Source: Hanleya hanleyi (Eukaryota > Mollusca > Polyplacophora > Lepidopleurida > Hanleyidae). Taken from it: a stretch of DNA of 64,000 nucleotides. The notes under the pieces are model-generated. The model saw nothing but the letters and a program-made list of their open reading frames with translations. It was not told the DNA's origin and did no database searches. Of the stretch, positions 31,101 to 37,100 are shown piece by piece. Numbering within the stretch: position 1 is the first letter of the stretch; each line of letters opens with the position of its first letter. The stretch lies in contig JAVTVY010018815.1 of NCBI GenBank assembly GCA_036873755.1, positions 1-64,000 of the forward strand. The letters run 5' to 3'. The position numbers and the translations under genes are program-made.

Positions 31101-34100
31101 CAAACAGAGTTGCATGCCTTCAATATCAGCTAATTACTTCGCAGCAAGTCCTGTCTGACCTTGTCATCAGTAATTCCATTGATATAGCTGTCTGCCCGAG
31201 CACAAAACTGGGAATTTGGGCAGCTAAATATTTTGTCATTCTGATTTGGTGGTGACTTGTCAACAAAGGTTTGAGTGTGAATAATGCAGGGCTAGGTATG
31301 GTTGTATAGGGAGACGAATTAATTTGAGTATAGAAGTCGTTAAATCTGACAGATGGACATTTAGCATTACTCGATGATGATAACGGAATTACCGTTTGAC
31401 TGCAAAGTGAAACCGATTGCGGCACCAGATCTGAGAGTATTTAACAACCATTTTCATATTTGCAATATTTAATTAACACGCTTGTCTGAGGAGATCGGCA
31501 CCATTACTTATCTCCTTCAATGTATCCAGAATTTTAAAGAAATGTTCTATAAATCAGTATTGCTTCTGAAACCAAATTCCCTCCTCACTCTACTCTAAAT
31601 GATGATACAAGTTGTTACATTTGTCAGGTGGACGTGATTGATGTGATAGAGAAAGCTCATAATGACGAGCTGGAACCAACTCCCGGTAACACTCTGAGAC
31701 AGACGTTTGAAAACCAGGTGAGTGCAGTACTGAAACTTTGAATGTGTTGAAAAGCTTCGAAATCGACATCATAATAAAGGCCTTGAAACACAGAAAATGT
31801 ATTTAAAAAGTGACACAATTTGAAATAAAGAGTAAACCCAGGAAAGCCTTGAAAGAGGAGACCAACAACATGTGCTGGTTATTTCCTGTCCCAGTCAGAA
31901 ACCGGTATTTCCAGTACATATTGCCGCAATTCGAAATAAAACAAAATATGGATATGATAATGTAAGAAAAATATGTTGAACCCAGGAATAGCAATTTGTA
32001 TGAGCTCAGTTGGTTGAACAGTAAATTGTGTGAGATATGGATCGAGTTGGGCAACACTTTGTACTAGATATTTACATTGAACTGAATTTTATTTCAGCTG
32101 AATCACAGCGCCGATTAGAAGACATTAGAAGATACATGTACATCCATATGAGTTTTCAATAATATGGTTTCTATCGCTCGATGATGATAACGGAATTACC
32201 GTTTGACTGCAAAGTGAAACCAATTGCGGCACCAGATCTGAGAGTGAATTATCTTGTATCATTTTCATAATTTCAGTTAAATTGTTATCAGTATAGTTAA
32301 TCTGCATGTGCAAGTAGGTAATGTAGCAGATACGTTTATTATTCCAAATAAAAGGCAAACAGAATTTCACTGAACTCTCATTCTTTTAGGGTGTAAGCTG
32401 TATATATGTATCTGCAGGTTACTTATCTCTCATCTGACTAAACTTGAGACTGTCTATTGCCATGGTTACAGGTGAATCGAATCCTGAACGATGCTCGTGA
32501 CAAGACCGGAAGTAAAGCCCAGAAATCTCTGTCCGAGTTCAACAACTTCAAATCTATGGTCGTGGCGGGATCTAAGGGATCCAAAATTAACATCTCTCAG
32601 GTAAGTGACACACACTCCAACATTGATCAAAATCAGGAAAAAATCCCAAAGTGTCCGTTTGTGATTCTACCCGGAGCATTTCTGGACAACCCAGCAAAAG
32701 TGATTTTCCTGCTTTGACAAATGGCTATGTACACCGCATAGGACTAGTTTTATGTATTTATCAAAATCCTGTAATAGGACACGATCAATTTCTACTTTCT
32801 CTTGAAGGTTATTGCCTGTGTGGGACAGCAGAATGTAGAGGGTAAGAGAATACCATTCGGTTTTCGTCACCGAACATTGCCCCATTTCATCAAAGATGAC
32901 TACGGTCCCGAGTCGAGAGGGTTCGTGGAGAACTCTTACCTCGCTGGCCTGACACCATCCGAGTTCTACTTTCACGCTATGGGAGGACGTGAGGGTTTGA
33001 TTGATACTGCCGTAAAAACGGCTGAAACTGGTATGTCATTTCTGATTGTCACCATATCATATATTCTGTTCCTCGTAATGTTCCTGTAACAACCTCTGGT
33101 TGATTTCTACCAAAGCTCATTGACACATCTTCTGTCACGAACGAAACAGTGGGAAACCAACCAGAGGCTGTTAGATGGACGGAAATATGTGAAGAGTAGA
33201 CCTCATGTCTGATATTGGTAGACAAACTTATCATTATGACACTGATAGATTGTTTACAGTAAACCATGAATTCACACACTTGTAACTACTCTTATAAGAA
33301 GATATTCTTCGTTTTTCTCTGCCACTTGATGATGATAGCAATCATTGCGTTTGATGTGACAGTGAAATTAAATCACGGCACGATCTGAGAGTGGTTACTT
33401 CTGTCAACCAGAATTACATGTGCAGTTTCAGTAGAAGTATACATCTGCCATTTACCACAAGGGATGGAGAGTTGCTAGCTAAAATAGCATTATCATGGCT
33501 ACATGCATGGATTTATTGTCCTCCGCCATGAAGTGGTGGGAGGACTTGGAAATGCTAGCTGTCCGTCCGTCCCACATCTTGTGAACGCGATATCTTGAGA
33601 ACAATTCGACCAATCGACTTCAAACTTGAGAAGGTGCTTCACATCAGTTAGACGGCCATTGGTATTGATTTTCACTGAAGGTACGTAATCCAAGATGGCC
33701 GCCATCGACCATATTGGATTCTGTCCGTCCCACATCTTGTGAACGCGATATCTCAAGAACAATTCCACCAATCAACTTCAAGCTTGGGAAGGTTCTTCAC
33801 ATCAGTTAGACGGCCATTGGTGTTGATTTTCACTGAAGTACGTAATCCAAGATGGCTGCCATTGACCATATTGGATTCCATCCGTCCCAGATCTTGTGAA
33901 CGTGATATCTCGAGAACAATTCAACCAATCGACTTCAAACTTGGGAAGGTTCTTTACATCAGTTAGACGGCCATTGGTATTGATTTTCACTGAGGTACGT
34001 AATCCAAGATGGCTGCCATTGACCATATTGGATTCTGTCCATCCCACATCTTGTGAACGCGATATCTCGACAACAGTTTGACCAATCCACTTCAAACTTG

Positions 34101-37100
34101 AGAATGTGCTTCGCATCAGTTAAACGGCCATTGGTTTTGATTTTCACTGAGATACGTAATCCAAGATGGCTGCCATGGACCATATTGGATTCACTCCGTT
34201 CCACATCTTGTTAACGCGATATCTCAAAAACAAATCAACCAATCGACTTCAAACTTGGGAAGGTTTTTCACATTAGTTAGTTAGACGGCCATTGGTATTG
34301 GTTTTCACTGAGGTACATAATCCAAGATGGCTGCCATTGACCATATTGGATTCTGTCCATCCCACATCTTGTGAACGCGATATCTCGAGAACAGATCGAC
34401 TTCAAACTTGAGAATGTGCTTCACATCAATTAGACGGCCATTGGTATTGATTTTCACGAAGGTACATAATCCAAGATGGCTGCCATTGACGATATTGGAT
34501 TCCATCCGTCTCGGATCTTGTGAACGTGATATCTCGACAACAATTTGACCAATCAACTTCAAACTCGAGACGGTGCTTCACATCAGTTAGACAGCGATTG
34601 GTATTGATTTTCATTGAGGTAGTATGTAATCCAAGATGGCTGCCATTGACCATCTTGGATTTCACTCACCCATATTGTACCCATCTGTGTTGTGAACGCG
34701 ATATCTTGATCTATTCCACTCATCGATTTATAAACCTCACCATCTACAAATCCATATACAACTACAGACTTACATTCCAGTGTTACACTACCCATTACTG
34801 CTTCCCAAACCTCAAATTGTCCAGATGAACGTCTCTTTCCACATACACATATCAACTTTCCAAGTTATATTTAAGGAGATATTGGAAGCGTACATGCTGT
34901 ATGCTCTCAAACAGGCTACTTGGTGGAGGACCTGCTAGCTACTCAGCTTGTTCCACTTAAATATTCTGAATACAGTGTATCGATGCCTTGCTTTTTGTCA
35001 AAATTTATAGGAATCAAAACAGATTCTCGCAATGCAACTCCACAGGACTCCAAAACTATCATTTCCATACAGACTGCTAAAGTTTTAGGTGTATATGTTG
35101 GGTTCGTGAATTATTTTGGGGGAGTATTGAGGGTGCCCTTTGTCAGAGTTCTAGTTCATGGGCCTGTAATTATTTTCAAGCTTTCGATAAAATATACCAA
35201 ACCATTCACATTGTACATGAACTTATACAGGTTATATCCAGCGTCGTCTGATCAAGGCCATGGAGAGTGTGATGGTCAAATATGATGGTACCGTGCGTAA
35301 CCAGATAGAACAGCTGATTCAGCTGCGTTACGGGGAGGACGGACTCGACGGTTGTGCTGTCGAGTTCCAAGAGATGCCCAGTCTCAAACCATCCAACTCT
35401 GCCTTTGAGAAACGATTCAGATTTGATGCCACAAATGAAAGGTGAAACATAAAAAATCTTTACAGATGTTTTTCGACATCATCAGTAATGTATAAATGTA
35501 ATTCTGTCGCTGAATTTCAAGCACTGTGTGACGATAATGGAATGACCATTTGCCTGTTAAGTGAAACCGATAATGCCACCAGATCTGAAAGTTCAGTTTG
35601 TGATTCTCACAGTTGTAACGTTCATATCGAGAACTTCCATTGTACAGTAAATATCAGAGATGCAGTAAGGTTGCTCTTGCATCTTTTGCCTCATTATAAC
35701 TGTTAGTGCCGTACAACCAACAACTGGAAACTTGTCCATTGCTCATATGGGCAGGTCATAGATGTTCCTATATGAATTCTCATGTACTGATTAGCCTCTA
35801 AAGCTATTACTGACCATGCTGAATTTTCAGAGAGATGAGGCGTTGGTTGAGTGAGGATGTGATAAAGGAGTTGTTGGGTGATGCACATGTCTTGGCAGAA
35901 TTGGAGCGGGAGTTTGATACGTTGAAGGAAGACCGAGAAATTCTCCGACAGGTCTTCCCTCGGGGGGACAGTAAGGTAGGTCCGAGAAATCTTGTCAGGT
36001 TAAGAACAAGCACCTAGATTTTCTACCAAAGGTGTGGCGGGGTGGGGGGTGTTGTCATTGAGTCGTATTTGCACCTGCCAAATTGAGAACAAGCACCTTT
36101 GTATTGACACATGTAACGAACATGGCTTACTCTGTTAGTCAATCAAAGTGAGTATAATTTGGAGAAAAAAATTCAGCATTGTTGCTGGGCATTCTGGTGG
36201 AGTGGTGCCGCCTGGCATAGAGGGTATAGAAAAACACTGAAATCCTTAATACTCGCTCCATGATGATAACGGAATTACCGTTTGACTGCAAAGTGAAACC
36301 GAATGCGGCACCAGATCTGAGAGTGAATAATCTTTTATCCTGTCCATGTGTATATGCTTATCACATTCCACTTCTTGATATGTATATAACGAGCTCTCAT
36401 TCTGCCTTCGACCCAAACAGGTTGTACTACCCTGTAACTTGAAGAGGATGATCTGGAATGCACAGAAAATTTTCCGACTGGATACGAGAAAACAGACTGA
36501 CCTTCATCCTCTCAAGGTTGCAGAAGGTAAGAACCTGTTCTTTTCTACCCACTCTGAATGTCTAACAATTGCCCTCACAACAGAAACCTCACACTGGTTA
36601 CTGTGTGAGAGTTTCTCCTAAATCTGGTATCGTCGCTGGTTCCTTAATAGGCCAATAAGTAAAGAAAAATATTTCTGGATTCCAACTTTATTCTCAACTT
36701 CCGTTAGGGTAATGCCTCTTATAATTCATTCACCGGAAGTGAAATTTCCCGCCATAAAATGTGGGGGTGATCCAATTAATTAGAATGGTTCAAAATCATG
36801 CATATAATCCATTATTTCTTTGTAATTTTAATGATTTTTAAAGGGTGATGAAATTTATTGGAACCACCGATTGAATTTTGTCCCTAAAATTGGAAGGGTG
36901 ATTGAATTATTAGAGGGATTCCTATATTTTGTCAATTGGTCACTTTTAATACCCGTTGTTAGGAAAATATTTTATGGCTCTGTTCTGAACAGAACAATGA
37001 TGGCGAGGTGATTGTGTCCTACATGTACATTCTTTTGATCTTGCCATCTTGGTTTTGCCAGGTGTCCGGGACTTGTGCAAGCGGTTGGTTATTGTAGCGG

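Follow-up and report, generated by a model that had tools for sequence, protein, structure and literature searches.

A candidate intronic box C/D snoRNA family in POLR2A of Hanleya hanleyi with two predicted guides to either side of the decoding-centre loop of 18S rRNA

We analyzed a 64,000-nt stretch of genomic DNA from the polyplacophoran mollusc Hanleya hanleyi (positions 1 to 64,000 of contig JAVTVY010018815.1, assembly GCA_036873755.1), referred to here as the window. It contains the gene for POLR2A/RPB1, identified through exon matches by tblastn and through Pfam and PDB chains. Exons and introns were numbered starting at the ATG exon. Exons 1-21, modelled up to position 39564, gave 1264 stop-free codons with AG/GT at all internal ends; later exons found by tblastn and the heptad-repeat C-terminal domain extend the gene to its 3' limit (Table 1). 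Introns 11, 12, 14, 15 and 16 each hold, on the sense strand, one copy of an element of about 72 nt with the boxes of a box C/D small nucleolar RNA (snoRNA); intron 13 has none. An earlier note, made from the sequence alone, had described this distribution and stated that three copies keep both guides intact. The coordinates and the exon model bore out the former, and the three intact copies proved to be those of introns 11, 12 and 16.

These three copies (copies 1, 2 and 5) share one layout. The 5' half opens with a terminal stem and box C (ATGATGA); after 4 nt come the D' guide GGAATTACCGT and the D' box TTGA. The 3' half continues with a spacer, a weak C' box (GTGAAAC), a second spacer, the D guide GGCACCAGAT, box D (CTGA) and the closing strand of the stem. 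The intact copies of POLR2A, and those of EIF4G described below, have ATGATGA and CTGA together with a terminal stem in which 4-6 of 6 positions are paired, as a box C/D snoRNA should. Copies 1, 2 and 5 differ pairwise at 1 to 3 of about 69 positions and lie in mostly unrelated flanks, with about 9 further common bases on the 3' side of copies 2 and 5. A 39-nt stretch identical in the three matched the window three times at up to 3 mismatches, compared to a mean of 0.00 in 100 shuffles. Scanning both strands of the window for the boxes yielded 12 candidates (1, 0, 0, 4 and 1 in five shuffles): copies 1, 2, 3 and 5, two copies of another snoRNA, and six weaker candidates taken as chance. Copy 4 was not among them, and a stricter box scan of the window returned no candidate.

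Compared to the other copies, copy 4 is about 81% identical and copy 3 about 72%. In copy 4, box C is the weak GTGACGA, the D' box and D' guide are broken, and the D guide is kept over -1 to -8. A hairpin in the D' region was considered, since the change from AACGG/CCGTT to AATGG/CCATT in copy 4 seems compensatory. We dropped this reading because both changes are CpG transitions, which we read as decay, and the CCG to CCA change occurs alone in a damaged EIF4G copy (C17009:43361). Copy 3 showed no guide pairing of about 10 nt or more with a target at -5. New ribosomal RNA (rRNA) targets for it were rejected, since 10 of 60 shuffles equalled its best D' match (18S position 855) and 45 of 60 its best D match; it is possibly an orphan or drifting snoRNA. 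Between copy 3 and exon 15, intron 14 also holds a tandem array of an approximately 157-nt unit (about 33562-34740).

Table 1. Coordinates of the host gene and of the five snoRNA copies in the window
Feature	Intron	Positions	Strand	Remarks
Host gene POLR2A/RPB1		19063..48363	+	tblastn, Pfam, PDB chains, exon model
Copy 1	11	31368..31439	+	intact; core (box C to box D) 31374-31434
Copy 1 terminal stem	11	31368-31372/31435-31439	+	
Copy 1 box C; box D	11	31374-31380; 31431-31434	+	
Copy 1 D' guide; D' box	11	31385-31395; 31396-31399	+	D' box TTGA
Copy 1 C'; D guide	11	31407-31413; 31421-31430	+	C' weak
Copy 2	12	32175..32246	+	intact; core 32181-32241
Copy 2 D' guide; D guide; box D	12	32192-32202; 32228-32237; 32238-32241	+	
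Copy 3	14	33320..33395	+	core 33329-33388; retains boxes and terminal stem; D' and D guides rewritten
Copy 4	15	35521..35598	+	decaying; core 35528-35588 (read by eye)
Copy 5	16	36254..36325	+	intact; core 36260-36320
Copy 5 D' guide; D guide; box D	16	36271-36281; 36307-36316; 36317-36320	+	

Because an intact 18S rRNA of the animal itself was not found, the guides were paired with seven rDNAs from other eukaryotes, carried by contigs of bacterial genomes. The numbering of two of these units (L005 and L006) fits yeast, and human U627 and G610 were derived by offset. Viral contigs, scanned by pattern, contained no match to either 18S or the snoRNA. In copies 1, 2 and 5, the D' guide GGAAUUACCGU formed 10 Watson-Crick pairs and one G-U pair on all seven rDNAs, a length proper to a guide, and the base at -5 was in each case the U of GCGGU, which is U578 in L005/L006 and corresponds to human U627. 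The D guide GGCACCAGAU of the same copies formed 9 Watson-Crick pairs and one G-U pair, with G561 (human G610) at -5, again in 7 of 7. G561 sits 17 nt upstream of U578, and the two paired stretches are separated by 7 nt. The earlier note had assigned the D' guide to U627/U578 by the five-base rule and had placed the D-guide target 17 nt upstream, at about human G610; the assignment held on the seven rDNAs and the count was correct. When the guides were shuffled 3000 times and scored by unbroken pairing on one 5951-nt rDNA unit, the D' score was reached in 71 cases, the D score in 166 and both in 3. No shuffled guide pair (0/3000) reached both scores with sites within 30 nt of each other.

The published data used here come from excerpts and tables of the articles cited. 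A table built on Dictyostelium sites, and weak for human ones, records methylation of the U578/U627 site in yeast, human, Arabidopsis and Dictyostelium, and gives as one site Um578 (snR77), Um627 (HBII-135 = SNORD65), Um580 (snoR77Y) and Dictyostelium Um571 (CD21) (PMC8817022), in keeping with the note's statement that this U is methylated in human and yeast. A methylation equivalent to G610 appears neither in that Dictyostelium table, nor in a plant-centred table, likewise weak for human sites, from which yeast Gm562 and human Gm601 are missing too (PMC11542601), nor in the chicken table of PMC2653536, which has entries for A551, G562 and U588 (U588 = U627). In yeast, Gm562, made with snR40, falls within the same UCUGGUGCC stretch as the D-guide target, but it depends on another snoRNA and lies one base 3' of G561, which is itself absent from that yeast list (PMC5199042). 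Human Gm601 lies nine bases 5' of G610 (PMC10164566).

Searches of the whole assembly (2.48 Gb, 52,793 contigs), in which match counts are lower bounds, located further copies in two other genes. A 68-nt query matched at least 10 places, of which POLR2A contains four and contig C17009 six; copy 3 and the copies of PRPF8 were not listed with it. The 16-mer CGGAATTACCGTTTGA occurred at least 8 times (3 in POLR2A, 5 in C17009; reversed control, 1), and a pattern of box C, D' guide and NNTGA in at least 11 places (POLR2A 3, C17009 4, contig C48250 4; reversed control, 0). Pfam and PDB matches identified the host gene in C17009 as EIF4G (MIF4G domain, eIF4G1 chains) and that in C48250 as PRPF8; in both genes the copies have the sense orientation and are flanked by coding pieces. 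Damaged ones included, there are at least 16 copies. Both guides and the boxes are intact in seven (POLR2A 3, EIF4G 4), the D' guide and the boxes are intact without a common D guide in four (PRPF8), and five are damaged or rewritten (POLR2A introns 14 and 15, C17009:43361, C17009:40284 and C48250:196574).

The D guide is unchanged in the seven intact copies and in the damaged C17009:43361. In PRPF8, the D' guide forms 12 Watson-Crick pairs with 18S; its identity in four copies was demanded by the search pattern, and a fifth copy, found by BLAST, has one C-to-T change in it. A model derived from ten POLR2A/EIF4G copies recovered all five PRPF8 copies (E 1.3e-8 to 0.002), including one truncated at the end of its locus. 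The same model matched 31593-31653 (E 0.0044), which overlaps the start of exon 12 and was taken as chance; its E-value is near the 0.002 of the PRPF8 copy cut by the locus end. The terminal stems of the PRPF8 copies (TGCCTC/GAGGCA, TACCTC/GAGGCA, GGCTTC/GAAGCC, TGTCCC/GGGACA and TACACC/GGTGTT) have on average 5.6 of 6 of their own positions paired versus 4.1 when strands are swapped between copies, a result equalled by 2 of 120 permutations.

No family of Rfam reached its gathering score in a scan of the window. In a permissive scan of 27000-38500, the best family was snoR77Y for copies 1, 2 and 5 (25.6, 27.2 and 22.7 bits; E 0.35, 0.13 and 1.8) and SNORD34 for copy 3 (22.9 bits, E 1.4), while copy 4 had no match up to E 5. 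Scanned alone, copy 2 matched snoR77Y with 27.2 bits (E 0.0011) and one PRPF8 copy with 30.9 bits (E 0.00015). In this comparison with covariance models, a kind of check proposed in the earlier note, the intact copies thus match best the plant guide for the U578 site, with scores below the gathering score of 52. The intact copies do possess a D' guide for 18S Um578/Um627, as expected of clan CL00057. Their D' arm appears to function like SNORD65, without being placed in an Rfam family by score.

Human SNORD65/HBII-135, yeast snR77 and plant snoR77Y, all of clan CL00057, are likewise box C/D RNAs with a guide at D' to the same 18S U. The Hanleya copies differ from them in the D' box TTGA, the sub-gathering score, the host genes and the number of copies, and in the POLR2A/EIF4G copies the D arm bears an additional guide; compared to snoR77Y, the spacing from box C to the guide is shorter. 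In the sources cited, the guide at D' is common to chicken (5' element), Neurospora and plants (snoR77Y alignment). The chicken counterpart is listed with a 13-nt 5' element for U588 as its single target (PMC2653536). Neurospora CD24, the counterpart of snR77, is intronic, and has both a D' guide for the U578 site and a further guide in its D arm, but the latter is assigned to Am62 of U5 small nuclear RNA rather than to 18S (PMC2780460). The D arm thus differs from one lineage to another, with a single listed target in chicken and an assigned U5 target in Neurospora.

The intact copies very probably encode, from within introns, box C/D snoRNAs that have the function of SNORD65/snR77. From their anatomy, location, paralogues and base-pairing potential, we infer the following course of expression and processing. 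The POLR2A pre-mRNA would be spliced, and the snoRNA would be trimmed from the intron between ends held by the terminal stem and the C/D boxes and would enter a fibrillarin-containing ribonucleoprotein particle (snoRNP). The D' guide would pair with GCGGUAAUUCC of 18S and direct 2'-O-methylation of the U adjoining the decoding-centre G (U578 in yeast, U627 in human), a role that we regard as very likely. The D guide would pair with the opposite flank of the same loop (UCUGGUGCC), where methylation of G561/G610 is the probable purpose of a working guide; that it does methylate G610 has, in our estimate, a little less than an even chance. Failing methylation, the D guide may help to prevent the helix-18 loop from closing while the 40S subunit assembles. 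The most far-reaching reading, to which we give somewhat less than an even chance, is that one POLR2A/EIF4G snoRNA methylates both flanks of the decoding-centre loop, G610 included, and that the PRPF8 sister set supplies only the ancestral mark.

Several observations weigh against the interpretation as snoRNA genes with the SNORD65/snR77 function and a second guide. The D' box has the sequence TTGA, the C' box is weak, the PRPF8 copies lack the D guide, and the snoR77Y scores (22.7-30.9 bits) stay under the gathering score of 52. With one mismatch allowed, the D' score was equalled by 6 of 60 shuffles and the D scores of copies 1, 2 and 5 by 10, 9 and 1 of 60. On one of the seven rDNAs, the D guide of copy 5 scores slightly higher at a site other than G561, and that of copy 4 fits another site better. 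A 90-nt 18S probe of the animal's own assembly matched no intact 18S, just a rearranged, partly duplicated fragment (L019, G000:C19490, around 1500-1600), which retains GTGCCAGCAGCCGCGGTAATTCCAGC without the UCUGG part. Covariation of the terminal stem is weak among the POLR2A/EIF4G copies: stem pairing in four POLR2A copies (copy 4 excluded) was equalled by 2 of 24 permutations, and in the ten-copy alignment the covariation score was equalled in 54 and the percentage paired in 22 of 500 shuffles. The seven intact copies represent five distinct cores; when these are compared, 5 of the 61 columns are variable and each of the 5 falls in a spacer (P 0.009), a figure flattered by the choice of these copies partly for intact guides; conservation of the D guide alone was not significant (P 0.395).

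The foremost alternative is a snoRNA with a single working guide, the D' arm to U627, whose D arm pairs by chance and is kept as the copies are young. We think this quite possible, if on balance doubtful. It agrees with the insignificant conservation of the D guide by itself, with the lineage-dependent D arm (one target in chicken, a U5 site in Neurospora) and with the PRPF8 copies, which keep the D' guide (identical in four, one change in the fifth) and have no common D guide. It does not readily explain why a 10-bp D guide lands 17 nt from the other target, a proximity within 30 nt that none of the 3000 shuffled pairs attained, or why this guide is the same in seven intact copies of two hosts (partly chosen for it) and in C17009:43361. 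An improbable second alternative is that both arms pair with the flanks of the helix-18 loop together and delay its folding during 40S assembly, whether or not G610 is methylated. The paired stretches, flanking one loop with 7 nt between them, suit such a chaperone; against it, two-guide snoRNAs commonly simply methylate two sites. A functionless dispersed repeat, of short interspersed element (SINE) type or a snoRNA retroposon, would account for the presence of at least 16 copies, five of them damaged or rewritten, and for near-identical bodies within mostly unrelated flanks, but is hardly credible, as the matches listed lie in sense orientation between coding pieces of three genes only, the PRPF8 stems pair despite their sequence differences, the guide fits a known site, and no A-tail was noticed beside the copies in flanks inspected by eye, without a dedicated scan. 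Genome-wide dispersal outside genes, which the earlier note had named as telling against a snoRNA family, was likewise not seen, the listed matches being in introns of POLR2A, EIF4G and PRPF8.

As to their history, we infer that the copies were duplicated inside their host genes and also moved between POLR2A, EIF4G and PRPF8, and that some decayed. Two small relics of the EIF4G MA3 exon lie upstream of two snoRNA copies (L016/L017, minus strand of C17009); part of the EIF4G set therefore arose by local duplication. The second guide may plausibly have been gained in the POLR2A/EIF4G sets or lost in the PRPF8 set. Multi-copy intronic C/D snoRNAs and two-guide C/D snoRNAs are well known, and the RNA is of a known kind. 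Cis-duplication across introns of one gene and moves to other hosts have been described (PMC2653536, PMC8178906, PMC3511168). Duplicated intronic C/D families of chicken (PMC2653536) and human (PMC8178906) similarly have copies across introns of one host, and chicken EIF4G1 carries HBII-142 copies in two introns (PMC2653536); human C/D families are described as mostly single-host (PMC8178906), whereas the Hanleya family spans three hosts. Among the papers listed by searches of an open-access library, none was recognised from its title and abstract as describing a SNORD65-like RNA hosted by POLR2A or this family in such an animal.

If the reading with two methylating guides is true, the lineage of this animal would have a ribose methylation at G610 that is absent from the excerpted yeast, Dictyostelium, plant and chicken lists. 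The reading predicts one ribose methylation beside the decoding centre, adjoining the position of yeast Gm562. The three housekeeping genes offer a natural comparison: copies in all of them keep the ancient U627 guide, and only the POLR2A and EIF4G sets have the second one. The family would also be an example of C/D snoRNAs that multiplied inside genes and, in addition, passed from one gene to another.

POLR2A contains another C/D snoRNA in two copies on the + strand, at 28456-28520 (intron 8) and 30081-30143 (intron 10), with an 8-bp terminal stem. Its D guide has 14 unbroken bases of complementarity with 18S, A755 (yeast numbering) being the base at -5, and its Rfam match is weak (SNORD70, 27.8 bits). 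Presumably, this is the first snoRNA family of the earlier note. Elsewhere in the window, a tandem array of identical 30-nt units occupies the intronic positions 40565-40714, and a fragment of a reverse-transcriptase domain (RVT_1, E 4e-8) lies on the - strand at 55078-55365.

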